From Smithella sp. SCADC (GTDB lineage Bacteria > Desulfobacterota > Syntrophia > Syntrophales > Smithellaceae), in the NCBI GenBank assembly GCA_000747625.2, contig JQDQ01000197.1:1-44567 (forward strand): DNA of 44,567 bases. The letters run 5' to 3'. This document shows, piece after piece, positions 8,163-43,812 of this stretch. A model generated the notes under the pieces. That model was not told the DNA's origin and ran no database searches. It was given only the letters and a program-made list of their open reading frames with translations. How positions within the stretch are numbered: the first letter of the stretch is position 1; the number at the start of each line of letters is the position of its first letter. Position numbers and translations under genes: made by a program.

Positions 8163-9689
8163 ATGGATACGTTTATTTTAGCTGCGACCAGTTTCACTAT
8201 CGCTGTTTCTCTTATGATTACCGGCAGGAAGGATCATCTGCAGTCTTCTTTCTCCCGCTTATGCGCTGCTGTTTTTATCTCGCAGGCGGCAATTTCCATG
8301 GGGGATGTTTTTCATTTCGGTTTTTTGCAGAAAATCAGCTATCTCGGAACTCTGGCGATCGCGCCTTTAGCGCTCGGATTTTTCCGTTATCTGACAAGGA
8401 CCAAGTCTTTGATTTCTTTGAGGATGTTTGTCTTGTTTATTCTGACAAGTTTGTGCGGAACTGTTTGCGTTTTCACTTCCTTGTCCAACGGAGTTTATTT
8501 TAATGCCGCCATAACATCATACACGCTTTTTGCTCTGGTTTTGTGTTATGCGGCCCTGTTGTGGCACACAAATAAATTGCCTTCCGGAAATGAAAAAAAA
8601 CGTTTTGGATATTTACTTTTTGTATGTCCTATTGCTCTGGTTCCGGGTAATATGCATTTATTGAATTACTGGGGACTTCACTTGCCGGTAGTAAAAGGCG
8701 TTGCTTCATCGGTTTTGCTTTATTTTATTTTGCTGGTTATCGCTTATCCGCAGCTTCGCGAACTGCATGATTTCTTTGCGCGGTGGCTGATAATTTTTGT
8801 CAATACTGTTACCGGAGCAGTCATTTTTTATTTCGCAGCTTTATTTTTCAACGGCACTCCACCAACCATTATGGGTTTATTACTGGCGGCTTTTCTAATA
8901 TCTTTGTCTTTCTCGCCGATGAAGATGATTTTAAGAAAAATATTCAGTTACTTTTATCCGGATAGTAAAGATGTTTTTACCTCTCTTTATGAATTTGACG
9001 AAAAACTGGAAAGGGAGAAAGCGCTGATGCTGGCGGAAATGGCTCCGGTTGTTGCCCATGAAATCCGTAATCCGCTGAGTTCCATCAAAGGAGCGGCTCA
9101 ATATCTGAAATCGGAAGCGTCCACTCAAGAACAACACGAACTCTTGAATATTATTGTCGAGGGAACGGACAGATTGAACAACGTTGTCAGTCAGATCCTC
9201 GATTATGCGCGTCCGTACAAACTCAACCTTAAATCTCAAAGTATCAACCTGGTTATTAAAAAAGTCATTTCTATTATCGCCGCAAATAAACTGGTGGAAA
9301 AAATTGCCATTGTCCGGGATTTAGATGAAAAACTTCCCGAAGTGAAGGTGGATGAACAGCAATTTATACAGGTAATTTTGAATATAGCGCTAAATGCCAT
9401 TGAATCAATGCCGCAGGGCGGCACTTTGACTTTTCGTACGTCCAGTAAGGAATTGGAATCTGAAGGGATGATAATTGTGACTATTCGAGATACGGGAATC
9501 GGAATCAATAATAAAGACGTCAAAGATATTTTTAAACCGTTTTTTACGACCAAGGAAAGAGGTACTGGATTGGGGCTGGCCATCTGCCAGAAAATTATTA
9601 AAGAACACGGCGGCAGTATAAGTGTTGAATCAATTCCTTTTCAGGGCACTGTGTTTATCATCAGGCTTAAAGCGGTAGAACAGGATTGA
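8163..9689 (+). CDS. membrane sensor histidine kinase
   Basis: 508 residues. The N-terminal half has seven or eight hydrophobic segments, then a short linker and a kinase core: H-box VVAHEIRNPLSSIKG with phosphoacceptor His299, N-box NIALNAIESM (Asn411), G1 DTGIGI and G2 GTGLGLAI. Family HisKA plus HATPase_c, of the kind that pairs with NtrC-type regulators. It lies 46 bases before its likely partner regulator in the same direction. There is no PAS or large periplasmic domain, so the signal is probably sensed in or through the membrane; its identity cannot be inferred. Position after lptD hints at an envelope signal, but there is no direct support. Confidence 0.9.
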   Translation: MDTFILAATSFTIAVSLMITGRKDHLQSSFSRLCAAVFISQAAISMGDVFHFGFLQKISYLGTLAIAPLALGFFRYLTRTKSLISLRMFVLFILTSLCGTVCVFTSLSNGVYFNAAITSYTLFALVLCYAALLWHTNKLPSGNEKKRFGYLLFVCPIALVPGNMHLLNYWGLHLPVVKGVASSVLLYFILLVIAYPQLRELHDFFARWLIIFVNTVTGAVIFYFAALFFNGTPPTIMGLLLAAFLISLSFSPMKMILRKIFSYFYPDSKDVFTSLYEFDEKLEREKALMLAEMAPVVAHEIRNPLSSIKGAAQYLKSEASTQEQHELLNIIVEGTDRLNNVVSQILDYARPYKLNLKSQSINLVIKKVISIIAANKLVEKIAIVRDLDEKLPEVKVDEQQFIQVILNIALNAIESMPQGGTLTFRTSSKELESEGMIIVTIRDTGIGINNKDVKDIFKPFFTTKERGTGLGLAICQKIIKEHGGSISVESIPFQGTVFIIRLKAVEQD

Positions 9690-36957: not shown

Positions 36958-37587
36958 ATGACTGCTGCAAGCGCTCAAGCATTAAGTGTTTTAAGAAGCA
37001 CTGAAAACCTGCAATGGTACATCATACCGTTGATGGTGTCCGTCGTGTACATCTACTTTGTTGAAATCGAGAAGAAAAACTGGAGTCCGGTTTTGCTGGG
37101 GCTGGCGTTTTGGGCAACCGAGTTTATCTGGGAGATATTCAACGCGCTGCTGTTATACATTACAGATTACGCGCCCCTGTGGACAACGCCGGGTAAATCA
37201 TCTTTTGTCATCTACGCGGGCCTGAACATCGAAATATCCTTCTTCTTCGCTGTTTACGGCTTGATGGTCTTAAAAATTCTGCCGGAAGATAAAAATATGA
37301 AAATCATGGGCATTCCCAACCGGTTATTCATCCCCACGATCCTGGGTCTTGCCGGCGTATTTGTCGAGGTGCTTTTAAACAAAAGCAACATGCTGATATG
37401 GGCCTATAAATACTGGAACTGGCCTAACATTTATTTCATTGTTGTTGCCTACTGTGTCCCATTGCTGGTGCTTGTCTGGCTGCATGATAATCTGACGTTG
37501 CGGGCGAAAAAGATCGGCGTGGTGCTTATGCCTGTCCTTGCAATCACGTGTCATATTGTGTTTGCAACAATACTCGGGTGGGTTTGA
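36958..37587 (+). CDS. multipass membrane protein of unknown function
   Basis: 209 residues with about six hydrophobic segments, including IIPLMVSVVYIYFV, VLLGLAFWATEFIWEIFNAL, ISFFFAVYGLMVLKIL, IYFIVVAYCVPLLVLVWL and a C-terminal segment ending ATILGWV. Rich in Trp and Tyr; conserved-looking polar residues lie within the membrane (TEFIWEIFN, EISFF). No family recognised. A strong AAGGAGG seven bases before the ATG and an upstream promoter suggest good expression. It lies 1.4 kb before the MerB-like selenoprotein gene in the same direction, separated by an IS5 insertion, so it may once have been in the same operon as a transporter. That link is inference. Confidence 0.6.
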   Translation: MTAASAQALSVLRSTENLQWYIIPLMVSVVYIYFVEIEKKNWSPVLLGLAFWATEFIWEIFNALLLYITDYAPLWTTPGKSSFVIYAGLNIEISFFFAVYGLMVLKILPEDKNMKIMGIPNRLFIPTILGLAGVFVEVLLNKSNMLIWAYKYWNWPNIYFIVVAYCVPLLVLVWLHDNLTLRAKKIGVVLMPVLAITCHIVFATILGWV

Positions 37588-37627: not shown

Positions 37628-38957
37628 GTCCCTGAAAAGGTCATTTTTTCTAAAAAGCATGAACGTGGAGCAGTTGAAAATATTTTTCGTTCATATATTG
37701 ACCTGTAAATTGAGCCGAATGTTGAAAATGGTTTTCCAAAAGCCATCGAAAAAAAGACAAAAAGAAAGCTCTGAGGAGCTTTCTCAGGTTGAAACCACAA
37801 CCGGACAGAATCGCGTTGATGCGGTCACCGTCTTTCCCCTGAAGATGATTCCGTTCTAATCGATTGTCTGTTTTCAAGTGACCAAAGATCGGCTCAATGG
37901 CTGACCGCCGCGCATACCATTGCCAGAGACTGGCTTTCATGCTCTTTTTCTTCTTTCCGGATAAGTGAACTTCTGTGTCCGTAATCTCTTTGGCCACGCC
38001 ACGGTAACCCCGGTCACAGTAAGCGTGCAGCGGCTGCCAGCCGGTGTTGTCTTTCACTTGCATGAGTGAATCTTTCAGTGTATGTCCGTCATAGGGATTG
38101 CCTTGAACGGCATCAATCGCTAATATCCAATTGTCCCTGGAACTGCTGACCATCGCCACCTTGCAGCCCAATTCATATTTCTTGTGAACTTTGCCCCGGG
38201 CAATACATTCCACCTCCGGAGCGTGAACACTGTAAACTTTATTTGTATCGTTTCTTTTCTGTTGGAAGATGTCACAGGCCCTGGAGAGAATTGGGGCTAA
38301 ACGCCCTTCCGGGTTGGAACACTTGCGTTAATATCCCGAATGACGCAACCCAACATGGTCTTGAGTCTCTTCGTTTCTTTCTTTGCCCGATTATGCTGAC
38401 CTGCGCTGGCATAGCGCCCTTGCTTAAGAAACACTTTCTGGCCTGTTTGTTCGTAACTCCTCCGTAAATTGATATCCATCTTCTTTGCGGCCTTAACAAG
38501 AACCCGGCGCACTTTATGGTAAAGTCTTGCGTCCGTGGGAAAAGCAATCGCTTTCTCCTGAACCGTTGTATCCACGTTCACTCTTTCCACATGTCTCTCG
38601 GTCAATAGATTTTTCTCTTTTGCCGTGTCGATGGCCACCAATAATGAGCTTTCAATCTTATCCGGCCCCAAACGTTTGCGCCATCGCGTCATGGATGACG
38701 GATCTATCGGCAAGGCATGCTGGAATCGCTTGTATCCGCTTGATCTTATTGGCCAGCATAGACAAAGGATGTCTTCTGTTTGAGCTTGTTCCAAATCGGA
38801 TCTGAACAAATCCCCATGGGACTCTTCAAAGCTGTTGTCTTTCGGTCGCATAAATTTGCCGGTTTTTAGCTCCTTTTCTGATATTTCCGGTATCTACAGC
38901 ACGTATCATTTAACAAATAAAGCAATTATATCAATATGTTATGAATGTTTCAGGGAC
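37628..38957 (-). mobile_element. IS5-family insertion sequence, transposase frameshifted
   Basis: About 1.33 kb with terminal inverted repeats GTCCCTGAAA (37628-37637) and TTTCAGGGAC (38948-38957), extending by one further base pair each side. It contains one minus-strand transposase gene in two frames. No clear target duplication is seen. It separates the membrane-protein gene at 36958 from the selenoprotein gene, whose ATG is 41 bases from the element end. Confidence 0.8.
37650..38851 (-). pseudogene. IS5-family (IS1478-like) DDE transposase with a frameshift
   Basis: The N-terminal frame (38851-38297) has the IS5 pattern DPSSMTRWRKRLGPDKIESS, NVDTTVQEKAIAFPTDARLY with the first catalytic Asp, and an Arg/Lys-rich segment. 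It ends in a stop after RDINASVPTRKGV. The rest continues in the -1 frame (NPEGRLAPILSRACDIFQQK, then VYSVHAPEVECIARGKVHKK), with second Asp in YCDRGYRG and Glu in RRSAIEPIFGHLK, ending at 37650. One base is missing near 38310-38335. Together about 400 residues, the family's normal size. Confidence 0.8.
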
Positions 38958-38997
38958 GACTAATTAAAGATATCTCCAATTAATGAGGGAGGTTGTG

Positions 38998-39747
38998 ATG
39001 ACCAATAAAGTATTGCCGGGTGTTGGAAAAAATGTTGTTCCTGTTCCATTCTGGTTGTGCAAAGGGGGATTCCAGATTGCCGGGATGACGATGCGAACAA
39101 TTTTCCCCATGATTTTTTCTGAAGAACACTTCCAGGTCAGGAAATTTCTATTCATGGAACTTATTCGTCTGCAGAAACCAATCTCACCTGCTTATATCAC
39201 TGAAAAACTGAACATGTCCATTGATAAGGTTCAGTCTATTCTGAAGGCGATTGCCAAAAATCAGATATGGATTATAAGGAATGAACAGGGTAACGTCACC
39301 TGGACTTATCCTGTTACCGTGGAAGAAACAAAATTCAAAATAACTTATAGTACCGGTGAGCAGGTCTGGGGCCCTTGAGGGGCGGACTCCATTGGAGAGC
39401 CCTTCGTGAAAGGGCAATTAACCGGCCAGCCATGCAGTATGACTTTGGAAACAAAATGTGCCAATTCGTTACACCCGATCCGCATGGAAATAGATAGTTC
39501 TTTGAACTATCGTATGCTGGATGGCGGCGCTCCGCCAATTCTTTTTTTCCCGATGGTTACATTACGCGCATATCTTCAGGGAACAAGGGAGAGATTTTGA
39601 CCGCTGTGCGTGTTCTTCCGGTCGGAAGACGATGCCAGGAAATACCGGAAAAATAATAAAACCGTCATGGGGCTTTATTTCCGCATGGGCACAAGCATTG
39701 AACTTGTAATAAGTATTTTTTTCAAAGCTCTTTATCTGATTGAGTAA
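38998..39747 (+). CDS. MerB-like organometal lyase with two selenocysteines (SaoL-like)
   Basis: Read through two in-frame UGA codons (39376-39378 and 39598-39600) the frame gives 249 residues to a UAA at 39745. GAGGGAGG five bases upstream sets the start. The N-terminus ends in a winged helix; then EETKFKITYSTGEQVWGP-U127-GADSIGEPF aligns with MerB ...RLYAWCALDT, placing Sec at Cys96 and Asp130 at Asp99. LETKCANSLHPIRMEI aligns with the MerB SHCAATG region, and RERF-U201-PLCVFFRSEDDA aligns with QSFCCHVHFFAS, placing Sec at Cys158/159. Each UGA is followed by a SECIS-like hairpin. MerB cleaves carbon-mercury bonds; selenols should bind soft metals more strongly. I recall an NCBI family SaoL with this description. 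Standard gene callers would report only the first 126 residues. Confidence 0.85.
39399..39415 (+). promoter_or_regulatory. bacterial SECIS-like hairpin for UGA127
   Basis: Six-bp perfect stem GCCCTT (39399-39404)/AAGGGC (39410-39415) with loop CGUGA, G in the second loop position. The loop begins 26 bases after the UGA at 39376-39378, inside the range usual for bacterial SECIS elements. Confidence 0.65.
39612..39630 (+). promoter_or_regulatory. bacterial SECIS-like hairpin for UGA201
   Basis: G39612-C39630, bulged U39613, U39614-A39629, then CUUCC/GGAAG around the tetraloop GGUC (39620-39623). The loop begins 19 bases after the UGA at 39598-39600. The E. coli fdhF SECIS also has a bulged U and a GGUC loop, 18 bases after its UGA. 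This is a strong match. Confidence 0.75.
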
Positions 39748-39777: not shown

Positions 39778-40248
39778 ATGAAAATAAAAAAAACATTTTT
39801 TGCTGTAGTGTTTATAGAGAACGGTTGCAATGACAGCGTGGACCGGATCTGCCGCCGGACATATTGGAAGTATTCTGGACATGACATATGCTTATGACGA
39901 AAATACGATCTACTGGCCAAACGCAACACCGTTTAAATTGACGTCGGAATTCCATGGAATGACCGGAAAAGGTTACTGGTATGCGGCCAACTTTTATGCC
40001 GCGTCGGAACACGGCGGCACACAATTTTATCCCGATCCAAAGAATGTTTTAGGAACCGACAAGAAAGGTCTGCCGGCGCTTCCTGAATTGAGTTTCCCGG
40101 CGTTTTCCCGGGAATCGGCGGAGTTTCTTACGAAACAACGAAATATCAAAGGGATTGCCTTGACACACCAAGCATTGATTATGGCAAGTCAACTGAATTT
40201 TTACCCAGCGCCTTGTGTCCCAGCGCCGTAACCACAGAGGAATCCACT
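39778..40248 (+). pseudogene. cyclase-family (kynurenine formamidase-like) protein, internally deleted and frameshifted
   Basis: GAAAGGAG precedes an ATG at 39778 that starts a signal-peptide-like MKIKKTFFAVVF, but a frame change near 39810-39830 is needed to reach GSILDMTYAYDENTIYWPNA. YAASEHGGTQFYPDPKNVLG joins two family segments that normally lie about 75 residues apart, so the HxGTHxDxPxH metal site is deleted. NIKGIAL then shifts by -1 near 40160, where DTPSIDYGKSTEFL is found. The C-terminus is lost. A secreted or periplasmic cyclase remnant directly downstream of the selenoprotein gene. Confidence 0.7.
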
Positions 40249-40260
40249 CCTCCGGATACT

Positions 40261-40505
40261 ATGCAGCCTATTAAAATAATGCCTTGTCTGGATATGAAAA
40301 ACGGAAAACTTGTCAGGAGATGGGCGCAGGTGTTATTCTGCCCACAAGCATGGACGGTGACGGCACCAAAGCCGGTTATGATATTCCTTTCACCAAAGCA
40401 ATTTCCGCAGCCGTCACCCTGCCGGTTGTGGCCTCCGGCGGCGCGGGCAAGCTGGAAGATTTTTACGAGGCGGTTGTTGAAGGCGGCGCAACGATACTCA
40501 AATAA
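40261..40505 (+). pseudogene. hisF: HisF-like fragment with an internal deletion
   Basis: [18 protein letters not shown] is the start of a HisF-type TIM barrel. It is joined, with a frame change near 40310, to [20 protein letters not shown] and [20 protein letters not shown], which is the C-terminal half with the second phosphate-binding GG. Roughly 140-150 residues between them are missing, and the end is cut at GGATILK. It cannot be an active imidazole glycerol phosphate synthase. No other his gene is nearby. Confidence 0.7.
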
Positions 40506-40587
40506 CCATTGACACGCAGCCGATACTCTCTTATCTTTCTAAGCTAAAGTAAAAAATCTCATCAAATATAACCTTAGGAGCAGACAT

Positions 40588-41784
40588 ATGACAAAAGATA
40601 ATAAAGTAGTTCTGCGCAACAAGAAGGGTGATCTCAAAAAGCTCGTCATGTTGATGAACAAGCAAAACAAAAGATTCTGGCCGCCGTTTTTCCCCTTGCT
40701 AAATATGCTTGATCTGGTCCTGACTCCAGAGGAGTTAAACCTCCTACTTAGGATGCGCACTGATTTATACTCATATGAACAGGCCTTCGCTGTTAGCGCC
40801 ATGGGCAAAGAAAATTTCAACGCTATTTTTGAATCGCTAAGGGCAAAGGGGTTTATTGGTACAAAACATGAAACCGATCAGGAACAATATACCCTTCACC
40901 CTTTTATTGTCGGGTGGTTAGAAGCTATTGTTCCGTATATGATCGGGAAACCTGAAGAAAAAGAATTTGCCCGCCGATATATGTCTTTTTTCAAAGCGAT
41001 ACAGAAAAATAATTTCTTCCCGGCCAGGAATATAATGAACATTATGACTAAGTTTGCTTCTGTATCCAATCAGAGTGTAGGCAGTGTTCCTGAATCAAAG
41101 GATGCAAAGGGAAAGTCTAAAATCATTATTGATGAGAAAATTGTTGCGCCGGATTCCAGAATTTATCCGACAAGTACTATTAATGATATTATTATGGAAT
41201 ATGGAAGTAAAAGCATCATTGGTCAGTTTAAAGCCTGCATGTGCAGGAAGGTAACTGAAAATGTTGGTGATCCATGCCGCTTCAAGATGAAAGATGACGT
41301 AGCATGCATGATTTTCGGCGATCCTGCTAAACAATATATAAAATATGGTCACGCGCGCCAGATAAGTAAGGAAGAAGCGTTTGATATTATACAAAAGGCA
41401 AGAGATCTCGGCGCTGTTCATTCGGTGTTTCACGAAAAGGATGATACGAAGCTTCCTCAAGTCGCTCTGTGCAACTGCTGCTGGGATTGCTGCGGACAGT
41501 TCCGATTATATAACATGGGGGCGCTGCCTTTGCGTTATAGTTGTTTTTACGTGGCTAAGATTGCAGAAGTATCAAAATGCAATGGATGCGGTTTGTGTGA
41601 GAAGTTCTGCCCGACGGCGGCGATAAAAGTCGTGGAGAAAAAAGTGGAGTTGGATACCAGGAAGTGCATTGGTTGCGGTCAATGCGTACATCAGTGTGTA
41701 CGCTCGGTCACGGAGCTTGTTGAAAGCAAACGCACTGTGTTTCTGCCGATGCTCAAAAAATCCGAGATAAGAATAACAACATAA
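40588..41784 (+). CDS. 2x[4Fe-4S] ferredoxin-domain protein with extra cysteine clusters
   Basis: 398 residues. An N-terminal helical, winged-helix-like region (LLLRMRTDLYSYEQAFAVSA...) is followed by a middle part with ACMCRKV (Cys217, 219), DPC (230) and ACMIFG (240), then CNCCWDCCG (Cys295, 297, 298, 301, 302). The C-terminus has two CxxCxxCxxxC clusters, CNGCGLCEKFC (331-341) and CIGCGQCVHQC (360-370), for two [4Fe-4S] centres. Cytoplasmic. Similar proteins are widespread in strict anaerobes, where they may pass electrons to partner enzymes; the function is unknown to me. AGGAG precedes the ATG. The clustered extra cysteines could hold another metal centre. Confidence 0.8.
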   Translation: MTKDNKVVLRNKKGDLKKLVMLMNKQNKRFWPPFFPLLNMLDLVLTPEELNLLLRMRTDLYSYEQAFAVSAMGKENFNAIFESLRAKGFIGTKHETDQEQYTLHPFIVGWLEAIVPYMIGKPEEKEFARRYMSFFKAIQKNNFFPARNIMNIMTKFASVSNQSVGSVPESKDAKGKSKIIIDEKIVAPDSRIYPTSTINDIIMEYGSKSIIGQFKACMCRKVTENVGDPCRFKMKDDVACMIFGDPAKQYIKYGHARQISKEEAFDIIQKARDLGAVHSVFHEKDDTKLPQVALCNCCWDCCGQFRLYNMGALPLRYSCFYVAKIAEVSKCNGCGLCEKFCPTAAIKVVEKKVELDTRKCIGCGQCVHQCVRSVTELVESKRTVFLPMLKKSEIRITT

Positions 41785-41890
41785 TTACGATGTCACGCAT
41801 ATGAAACTCTGGGAGAACAATAAGGTATTGCTGATTAAGTTCAAATGAATAATCGATTTTAATCAATACTTTCATCTATGGAAAAATAAC

Positions 41891-42577
41891 ATGGCTTTAA
41901 TCGAAATGAAAAACATCACCAAAGATTATTATCTTGGTGAAACGATAGTGCACGCGCTGAGAGGCATTGACCTGCAGATAGATAAGAAAGAGTTTGTGGC
42001 TATATGGGGGCCGTCAGGTTCCGGCAAGACCACTCTCCTGAACCTTATCAGCGCCATTGATGAACCAACTACGGGGGAATTGGCAATTGCCGGTAAGGAT
42101 GTCCGGTCTTTGACTGATAACCAAAAAAGCGAACATCGCAATAAAACGATCGGTTTTGTCTTTCAGGGATTCAATCTGGTTCCTGTTCTTTCCGCACTGG
42201 AGAATGTAATGCTGCCTCTACAGATTAGGGGCGCATCGGCGACAGAAGCCAGAACGCAGGCCCTGAGCCGCTTGGAAGAAGTCGGCTTGAGCGACCTGAT
42301 CAATAATCGCCCGGCGAAAATGTCCGGTGGGCAGCAGCAAAGAGTATCTATCGCGCGGGCGCTGGTGAATAACCCATCGCTTGTAATTGCCGATGAACCG
42401 ACAGCCAATCTTGATTCCGAAACTGCAAGAATGATTATCGACATCATGCGCGAATTAAATGAAAAAGACCATATCACTTTTATTTTTTCCACTCATGATC
42501 AGAGGCTGCTGGAGAGGGTCAAACGATTAGTGCGTCTGGAAGACGGAAAGATCGTTAATGGAGGGGCAACGCAATGA
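41891..42577 (+). CDS. ABC transporter ATPase, MacB/LolD type
   Basis: 228 residues. Walker A GPSGSGKT (40-47), Q-loop in FVFQGFNLVPVLSALENVML, signature MSGGQQQR, Walker B LVIADEPTANLD, and H-loop FSTHDQ. The MacB/LolD/FtsE subfamily powers extrusion or lipoprotein release through an FtsX-like permease. Its stop overlaps the permease start by four bases (ATGA), so the two are translationally coupled. Together with the downstream LolA-like gene this forms an envelope export cassette. Confidence 0.92.
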   Translation: MALIEMKNITKDYYLGETIVHALRGIDLQIDKKEFVAIWGPSGSGKTTLLNLISAIDEPTTGELAIAGKDVRSLTDNQKSEHRNKTIGFVFQGFNLVPVLSALENVMLPLQIRGASATEARTQALSRLEEVGLSDLINNRPAKMSGGQQQRVSIARALVNNPSLVIADEPTANLDSETARMIIDIMRELNEKDHITFIFSTHDQRLLERVKRLVRLEDGKIVNGGATQ

Positions 42578-43812
42578 TGAAATGGCTAAAACTGGCAGTC
42601 CGGAATATTTTCAGAAACAAGCGCCGTTCTTTTGTCACGCTGATGGCGATCGGCGTGGGCTTTGCCTCGATAAGTCTTTTTCAGGGCTATATCGATCATG
42701 TGTATTACGGACTAAGGGTTATAGCCATTCACGGAGAGGGATTGGGTCATTTAAGAGTCAACAAGGTTGGTTGGCAGGAAAAGGGAAAGCTTGAACCGGA
42801 AAAATACATGTTCTCCAAAGAGGAAACTCAAAAGATTATCAAGCTTGTTACGGAAGAAAATACTGTAATATTAGCGACGCCACAGATTCAAGTAACCGGT
42901 ATAGTAACCAATGGGATTGCCTCGACTATTTTTATCGCTCAGGGTGTCGTTCCTAAAGATGACAAGACTATTAAAGGAACTTGGGCTAGTTTTTTGCCGA
43001 TTAAAGGGCAGACATTGAATGACGAAAAACTCTATGGTATAGAGATAGCAGAAGACTTGAGCAATTATCTTAGCCTGACACAGGACAAAGAAGGGGTGGT
43101 AATGGCCCCCACCTTAAGCGGGCAAATGAACGCTTTGGATGTAAAAATAAATGGCGTCTATAACACCGGTTCTGAATTTTCTAATGATAAATTTATGCGC
43201 TTCAATTTTTACTTCGCTCAGTCTCTGCTCGACACTCAATCGGCGGAAAGAATTGTGATACTGCTGAAAGATTGGGAGGATACCGAACGGATGCGCACAG
43301 TCCTTCTTGCAAAGCTGAAAGCTGGCGGCATCGATTGTGAAATTCGAACATGGGAAGATTTATCCCTGTTCTTTTCAAAAGAGAAAGCATTTCTCAGAGT
43401 GATGTTTACGTTTCTCTTTTCCATAGTTTTGGTTATTGTAGTGATGACTACAGTCAATACGATGGGCATGGCCATTCTCGAAAGAACCAGAGAGATTGGA
43501 ACTCTGCGGGCTTTGGGTTTAAAACGCAGAGGGGTATCTCTTCTTTTTGCTTTGGAAGGAGCGTTACTGGGCTTTTTCGGCAGTGTGATGGGCCTTATAT
43601 TGCACACATGTGTGTGGACAATAATGAGAATTTATCCACCAAAATATACGCCTCCGGGAATAGCCATGCCCATAGATCTGGTTGTGCACATGGTGCCGTG
43701 GATGCTCTTTATCTTACTGTTTTGTTTTGTTCTGTTTTCCATGTTTGCTGCATTAATTCCGGCCAGACGGGCAGCCAAACAAAATATTGTGGATTCTCTG
43801 GGACATGTTTAA
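42574..43812 (+). CDS. ABC transporter permease, FtsX/MacB type
   Basis: 412 residues. An N-terminal membrane helix follows the basic WLKLAVRNIFRNKRRSFVTL motif typical of MacB/LolE permeases; a large periplasmic domain of about 230 residues comes next, then three C-terminal helices with TMGMAILERTREIGTLRALG, the conserved FtsX coupling segment contacting the ATPase, and a final FAALIPARRAAKQNIVDSLG. Partner of the upstream ATPase. The substrate is probably a lipoprotein or periplasmic ligand transferred with the LolA-like protein that follows. Confidence 0.92.
   Translation: MMKWLKLAVRNIFRNKRRSFVTLMAIGVGFASISLFQGYIDHVYYGLRVIAIHGEGLGHLRVNKVGWQEKGKLEPEKYMFSKEETQKIIKLVTEENTVILATPQIQVTGIVTNGIASTIFIAQGVVPKDDKTIKGTWASFLPIKGQTLNDEKLYGIEIAEDLSNYLSLTQDKEGVVMAPTLSGQMNALDVKINGVYNTGSEFSNDKFMRFNFYFAQSLLDTQSAERIVILLKDWEDTERMRTVLLAKLKAGGIDCEIRTWEDLSLFFSKEKAFLRVMFTFLFSIVLVIVVMTTVNTMGMAILERTREIGTLRALGLKRRGVSLLFALEGALLGFFGSVMGLILHTCVWTIMRIYPPKYTPPGIAMPIDLVVHMVPWMLFILLFCFVLFSMFAALIPARRAAKQNIVDSLGHV

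Follow-up and report, generated by a model that had tools for sequence, protein, structure and literature searches.

The window (the whole 44,567-nucleotide stretch of Smithella sp. SCADC DNA analysed herein) contains an intact gene for a MerB-like protein in which two in-frame UGA codons occupy the positions of both catalytic cysteines of MerB. The gene very probably encodes a protein of the MerB fold with selenocysteine (Sec) at both sites, each UGA being read as this residue. That such a Sec/Sec protein also acts as a lyase is inferred, and we favour this activity with noticeably less confidence.

An intact frame with the residue order of MerB

The gene lies on the forward strand (38998..39747) and encodes 249 residues followed by a TAA stop. 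UGA codons 127 and 201 are the only stops before the TAA. The initial annotation placed both UGAs correctly in a frame of 250 codons, a length that is more exactly 249 codons plus the TAA. Its good ribosome binding site is also present, as a Shine-Dalgarno-like AGGGAGG (38986..38992, forward strand) that ends 5 nt before the ATG, and purine-rich stretches occur upstream of all 11 other family genes inspected. An alternative in-frame ATG exists at 38983; the family alignment favours the start at 38998. The gene is intact and is not a chance frame. Because both UGAs fall inside it, ordinary gene calling would shorten the protein.

The window protein matches the Pfam MerB model PF03243 over residues 107-235 with 36.4 bits (cut-off 27), and all 12 members of the family profile match Pfam MerB at E<=0.1. 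Aligning this 12-member profile to MerB structures, with the MerB residue numbers counted by hand from the alignment, places UGA codon 127 (Sec1, 39376..39378) at Cys96, Asp130 (39385..39387) at Asp99, Cys154 (39457..39459) at Cys117 and UGA codon 201 (Sec2, 39598..39600) at Cys159, all on the forward strand. The alignment thereby bears out the earlier claims that UGA stands at both catalytic cysteine positions and that residues 127 and 130 correspond to Cys96 and Asp99; for residue 201, where Cys158 or Cys159 had been proposed, it gives Cys159 and not Cys158. In-frame UGAs aligned with functional cysteines of homologues satisfy one criterion for a selenoprotein; the identity of the inserted residue as selenocysteine is an inference.

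An AlphaFold model, computed from a 12-row alignment with C written for U, has a pLDDT of 81.6 and a pTM of 0.78. In a Foldseek search with this model, all 11 matches at E<=0.001 are MerB or MerB2, with target-normalised TM values of 0.57-0.70 and sequence identities of 13-18%. The predicted model satisfies membership of the MerB fold, whereas the Cys96/Asp99/Cys159 set required of MerB proper is not met, as these columns hold UGA, Asp and UGA. The likeness to MerB (PF03243; 1s6l, 3f0o and 3f2f; MerB2 5c17) thus consists of the predicted fold, the catalytic order, the Asp and the Cys117 counterpart. The differences are the UGAs in place of both catalytic cysteines, the low identity over the structural matches and scores below the NCBIfam MerB cut-offs.

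Four NCBIfam families are listed for the window protein, and all score under their cut-offs: SaoL scores 42.4 bits against 140, two MerB models 37.2 against 193 and 26.9 against 200, and SecB 11.7 against 223. Six other family members score 30.6-51.4 bits with the SaoL model (NF040728), again below 140. This branch of the MerB superfamily fits no NCBIfam model. The proposed membership of the SaoL family is therefore not upheld. SaoL is the one MerB-like selenoprotein listed in the available part of PMC13188914, where it carries one Sec within a CU motif, whereas the window protein has two UGAs, neither preceded by Cys. Moreover, no Sao family appears among the matches listed for the neighbouring frames at 36958-37587, 40588-41784, 41891-42577 and 42574-43812 (the best 25 matches for two of them). 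Both proteins are MerB-like and, judged by sequence, the window protein is kin to SaoL yet is not SaoL.

Conservation of the two UGA codons across the family

The sister genome (G034) encodes a protein 68% identical to that of the window with UGAs at the same two codons, so an independent genome corroborates both UGAs. Within the order, 13 of 155 genomes match the family. Full copies whose two UGAs align, at a spacing of 74 or 75 codons, are observed in 12 of these 13 carriers (the window included); in the remaining carrier, G036, the gene is split over two frames and both UGAs lie in the C-terminal piece. This split copy (L050, contig C7, 42336-43014) belongs to the same genus and reflects a frameshift or an assembly error. 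In a phylum sample of 395 genomes, 25 match the family profile. All 15 strong matches (at least 267 bits) hold two TGAs by stop count, three of them being shared with the order set and the other 12 lacking a codon alignment, and the 10 weak matches (at most 52 bits) hold none, one or two.

A scan of named-species genomes extends the family much further. Scanning with the window protein alone gave 26 pattern matches and no relative, and scanning with an alignment carrying X at the UGAs succeeded. The best 80 of 91 relatives were retained and, with the window and its sister, form the 82-member set used below. Both scan patterns excluded the UGA columns, so cysteine versions were equally detectable. 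The 80 retained relatives, almost all of them from metagenome-assembled genomes, span Deltaproteobacteria/Desulfobacterota, Chloroflexi, Acidobacteria, Nitrospirae, Abyssobacteria, KSB1, Zixiibacteriota, Rokuibacteriota, Binatia, Spirochaetes and other groups. Across the 82 members, UGA stands at residue 127 in 81, the exception being L150 with Cys (TGC), and at residue 201 in all 82; all 82 likewise keep Asp130, and 81 keep Cys154. Homologues with unrelated residues at 127 and 201, which would have refuted the initial annotation, are absent from this set.

Selection on the protein extends across both codons. Between the window gene and its sister (NG86, omitting gap codons and both TGAs), dN/dS is 0.19/0.81 over the whole gene (a ratio of about 0.24), 0.22/0.76 before the first UGA, 0.17/1.20 between the UGAs (a ratio of 0.14) and 0.16/0.50 after the second. 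Low values on either side of both UGAs indicate that translation past both is selected for.

A tree of 57 rows places these genes among other MerB-like proteins. It includes 29 of the 82 members of the window's family, herein type A, and omits the other 53; L172 and L176, whose sites were not found, and the duplicates L071, L072 and L075-L078 are excluded, and the second cysteine of L170 was mis-placed by the site-calling script. All type A rows form one branch (100/99). The single Cys/UGA member lies nested within it, so that a later reversion is the best account of its lone Cys. The closest outsiders, L164 and L169 (96/83, on long branches), are termed SaoL-like from their CU motif alone; they share with the window the UGA at the Cys159 position but have Cys at the Cys96 position.

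A second set of double-UGA genes, type B (QKWFGQUAFESLAV...YAUSTMNLFRSEEH), forms its own clade (100/99) of 12 rows (L173, L174, L177, L179, L181, L182 and L184-L189), each with a MerB match. Its UGAs stand at the same two positions as those of type A, but it has Glu at the place of Asp99 where type A has Asp, and it groups with Cys/Cys/Glu relatives (98/92). A GGUC-loop hairpin sequence follows the second UGA in the six of these 12 type B rows that were inspected. UGA at site 1 alone is found in none of the 57 tree rows. The simplest reading of this tree would be that the double UGA arose twice, once in each type; a single origin with losses is not excluded.

Double-UGA genes are also frequent among MerB-like genes at large. 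The phylum sample yields 59 Pfam-MerB matches, some of them partial, in 49 of its 395 genomes: 35 have two TGAs, seven have one, 16 have none and one has a TAA. This is an undercount, as the search missed known copies in G000 and G035. With two TGAs in 35 of 59 matches, merB surveys based on ordinary gene calls should miss or shorten much of the MerB-like diversity there. A Cys/Sec pair is also seen outside SaoL, among related MerB-like genes with the motif MCALDALA: L168/L077 (G449) has UGA at the Cys159 place (SLURKMVFL), where L161 and L162 (G413, G451) have Cys (SLCREMVFL).

The literature searched, of which several sources were available only in part, gives no account of type A or type B double-UGA MerB-like genes. 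PMC9312934 lists a MerB-like selenoprotein without its motif, mentions of Sao genes in PMC10418091 are confined to a figure legend and a reference, and MerB goes unmentioned in the accessible portion of PMC12013277. This coverage excludes Haft and Gwadz 2023 and Haft and Tolstoy 2025, so novelty remains conditional.

Hairpins and machinery for reading UGA

Each UGA is followed by a SECIS-like hairpin on the forward strand. At site 1, GCCCUU[CGUGA]AAGGGC (39399..39415) has its apical loop 26 nt after the UGA, and the family fold, GCCCUU-CGUGC-AAGGGC, has the same spacing. At site 2, the apex UCUUCC[GGUC]GGAAGA and a lower stem (39604..39638, an extent taken from folding of the window sequence) place the loop 19 nt after the UGA, as does the family fold, UUCUUCU-GGUC-AGAAGAA. 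The E. coli fdhF SECIS likewise has a GGUC-type apical loop.

Folding of single sequences supports the two sites unequally. In the window, site 2 has a z-score of -2.64, with two of 200 dinucleotide shuffles as good; its z-scores elsewhere are -3.00 (L089), -1.94 (G034), -0.75 (L080) and -0.68 (L125). At site 1 a competing stem is the minimum-energy fold of the window (z -1.51, 14 of 200 shuffles as good), and the z-scores are unremarkable in G034, L080, L089 and L125. In these five sequences, shuffling gives site 1 no support. As the site-1 hairpin is not the window's favoured fold, its case rests on the family evidence. A hairpin scan of 12 sequences (24 sites), using our own rules and not bSECISearch, found no hairpin at two sites and a different best loop at four (including site 1 of G034, L155 and L157).

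Across the 82-member set, synonymous choice is nearly frozen after both UGAs. The codons following UGA 1 include CCC (81/82), TTC (82/82), GTG (82/82), CAA (71/80) and GGG (81/82), and those following UGA 2 include TTC (82/82), a further TTC (79/80), TCA (73/82, the other nine being TCG), GAA (78/81) and GAA (75/80). Use of the modal codon averages 0.54 at 40 conserved control positions, and the freezing holds although coding GC ranges from 38 to 71% across the family. Pairing is similarly maintained. The 11 pairs of site 2 are paired in 90.6% of cells, with four pairs changed on both sides, and the six pairs of site 1 in 97.9%, with one pair changed on both sides; slid controls reach 43-59% and 20-68% at sites 2 and 1, respectively. 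On some other measures the slid controls match or exceed the structure. Shuffles equal the number of further pair types at site 2 in 111 of 500 cases; at site 1 they match the pairs with changes on both sides in 242 of 500 and the further types in 200 of 500.

The codon pairs beside the GGUC loop reveal how the site-2 stem is kept. In the 82-member set these are TGG/TCA (71), CGG/TCG (6), TGG/TCG (3) and TGT/TCA (2), with a compensatory change from U-A to C-G in the pair next to the loop. The window has CGG/TCG and so keeps its stem at the cost of W208R; L120 keeps the stem through E210K, and L114 and L123 through Phe to Leu changes. This RNA-level constraint is observed directly in the codons, and the combination of frozen codons and compensatory changes is as expected of SECIS elements, a function that remains putative. 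The initial claim of SECIS-like hairpins after each UGA thus holds clearly for site 2; for site 1 it stands by family freezing and pairing, although the window sequence alone favours another fold. Paired hairpins, one of them kept by protein-altering compensation, offer a compact natural system for studying SelB at two UGAs per message.

Most of the machinery for inserting selenocysteine is present in the window genome, a draft assembly of 244 contigs that is 94.7% complete and 8.2% contaminated. SelB (376.8 bits) has C-terminal winged-helix domains, a canonical tRNA-Sec (contig C191, 73.8 bits) is identical to that of the sister, and selD contains an in-frame UGA of its own. The check for sel genes suggested with the initial annotation thus finds selB, selC and selD, and the absence of selB and selC that would have refuted it does not occur; selA is not found in this assembly and is present in the sister. 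As selA occurs in 11 of 13 carriers, in 137 of 155 genomes of the order and in 91 of 92 good ones, a missing contig is the likeliest cause, and co-occurrence of selA with the gene is uninformative. A tRNA-Sec model match above the Rfam cut-off is found in nine of the 12 other carriers of the order (best 62.5-77.4 bits). Passing this cut-off is not diagnostic by itself: of four such matches in the window's own genome, one (L020) is a tRNA-Ser by ARAGORN.

ARAGORN also identifies two further tRNA-SeC(tca) genes on contig C241 of the window genome (L190), at 1431-1526 on the reverse strand and about 9182-9272 on the forward strand. For one of them the sister has a 92% match, and a UCA-anticodon tRNA-Sec-like gene lies there at 8455-8548 of L194. 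By our own reading of the folds, the acceptor stem of these tRNAs is 8 bp long and the T stem 4 bp, and position 73 is a U. The second C241 gene directly precedes a C_GCAxxG_C_C gene, with rhodanese, TusA/DsrE, class-V aminotransferase and HGD-D genes around it. It is possible that these are selC*-type tRNAs in a sulfur/selenium island. A global reassignment of UGA was considered and rejected: UGA is the ordinary stop of seven of 19 long window ORFs (hand-picked), which argues against any general change of meaning.

Candidate chemistry, rival readings and genomic setting

In MerB, the catalytic pair binds the metal, and a proton from the Asp lets the hydrocarbon depart. Compared with thiols, selenols have a higher affinity for soft metals, and at neutral pH they are ionised. 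In the preferred reading, SelB with tRNA-Sec would decode each UGA by means of its own SECIS hairpin and, by analogy with MerB, the selenolates of U127 and U201 would jointly grip the soft metal of an organometal, the inferred substrate being most likely organomercury. Asp130 would then protonate the metal-bound carbon, the hydrocarbon would depart, and the metal would stay on the selenolate pair pending its transfer to cellular thiols, selenide or a carrier. With stronger selenol-metal binding, attack should be faster and release of the metal slower. Slower release leaves a trap or a non-mercury substrate still possible. In the absence of biochemical data, it is also conceivable that Hg(II) binds to the selenolate pair too tightly to allow turnover.

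The identity of the residue at the UGAs can be questioned, since the two UCA-anticodon tRNA-Sec-like genes on C241, present besides the canonical tRNA-Sec, make Cys or Ser insertion conceivable. One or both UGAs could then be decoded by a UCA-anticodon selC*/allo-type tRNA, yielding a thiol or mixed Sec/Cys enzyme. As far as the available part of PMC7609411 extends, selC* tRNA-Cys has U73 and a second selB occurs in Syntrophobacterales and Desulfobacterales; the selC* tRNAs described there, however, bear a GCA anticodon. Only one selB passes the cut-off in the window genome, SECIS-type hairpins accompany a family of many phyla, and most other carriers of the order have the tRNA-Sec match given above. 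Were cysteine sufficient, TGY codons should be common, whereas in the 82-member set they occur once at site 1 and never at site 2. Decoding as Cys or Ser is thus improbable. Still harder to sustain is a decaying pseudogene with the UGAs as ordinary stops. The region just downstream (40015-40500) does lack five pieces present in the sister, and a cyclase-like frame there is broken. Within the gene itself, however, no stop interrupts the frame apart from the two UGAs, whose positions are conserved, and the compensatory change in the window preserves the site-2 stem. The dN/dS against the sister (about 0.24, and 0.14 between the UGAs) leads us to reject decay, leaving this reading with scarcely any weight.

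A different doubt concerns function. The protein might truly have the MerB fold and two Sec residues and yet be a metal or metalloid binder (a two-selenolate trap, carrier or sensor) and not a C-metal lyase, a reading that we consider unlikely, though less so than decoding as Cys. It agrees with the preferred Sec/Sec explanation in all but catalysis, so the chances of the two overlap. Established chemistry implies very tight binding of Hg(II) by a pair of selenolates, and no common partner for metal hand-over is found among the neighbours examined. Against this, the proton-donor Asp is kept in all 82 members of the set and the Cys117 counterpart in 81, and neither is obviously needed by a mere binder.

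If the Sec/Sec lyase reading is true, it describes an enzyme family with an all-selenium, two-residue grip on metal across many phyla. Pathways of methylmercury breakdown independent of mer are still under exploration (available parts of PMC10349881 and PMC12997803), and the gene provides a concrete, testable candidate. A broader proposal is that two-Sec organometal lyases of different phyla, concealed from ordinary annotation by their UGAs, constitute a mer-independent methylmercury demethylase of anaerobes, often in mercury methylators, with the double replacement made twice, in types A and B; we offer it only as a speculation that is more doubtful than the lyase activity itself. In the order, hgcA exceeds its cut-off in 10 of 13 carriers versus 65 of 142 other genomes (Fisher p 0.03 one-sided and 0.04 two-sided, uncorrected for kinship or completeness), and the window genome is negative. 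This link is a hint only.

Genomic context adds little to the question of substrate. The 743 ORFs lying up to 6 kb from the 82 loci form no conserved operon, the biggest clusters covering 11, 10 and nine loci. Nine of these loci have a MarR cluster just upstream and seven a MerR-like cluster; by Pfam, the nearest upstream neighbours (n=65) include seven MerR and seven MarR. No family recurs in more than two of the 31 same-strand downstream neighbours, a set of 32 from which a 4.7-kb ORF at L109 was excluded. The top-25 Pfam tallies of these 65 upstream and 31 downstream neighbours contain no mer gene except MerR-family regulators, and no mer gene is among the matches listed for the window's scanned neighbours, merA not having been a target. 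In L086 the MerR-like protein contains a single cysteine, residue 56 by our own count, unlike the mercury sensor. That a MerR-like or MarR gene lies just upstream at a minority of the loci suggests an inducible enzyme that stands alone and serves in detoxification or salvage, and not a member of a mer or SAO operon.

The immediate surroundings of the window gene are rearranged. Two fragments just upstream (37650-38851, reverse strand) are, we presume, transposase-like, and a DUF772 match for the second is below the cut-off. Downstream, the stretch at 40015-40500 lacks five pieces of about 180-1050 nt relative to the sister, and the junctions show 1-12 nt of overlap; the broken sequences there are tentatively read as a cyclase and a HisF. 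The remnants between the missing pieces are 93-97% identical to the sister; identity is 79% for the MerB-like gene and for 40495-43808, and 93% over the last 0.7 kb.
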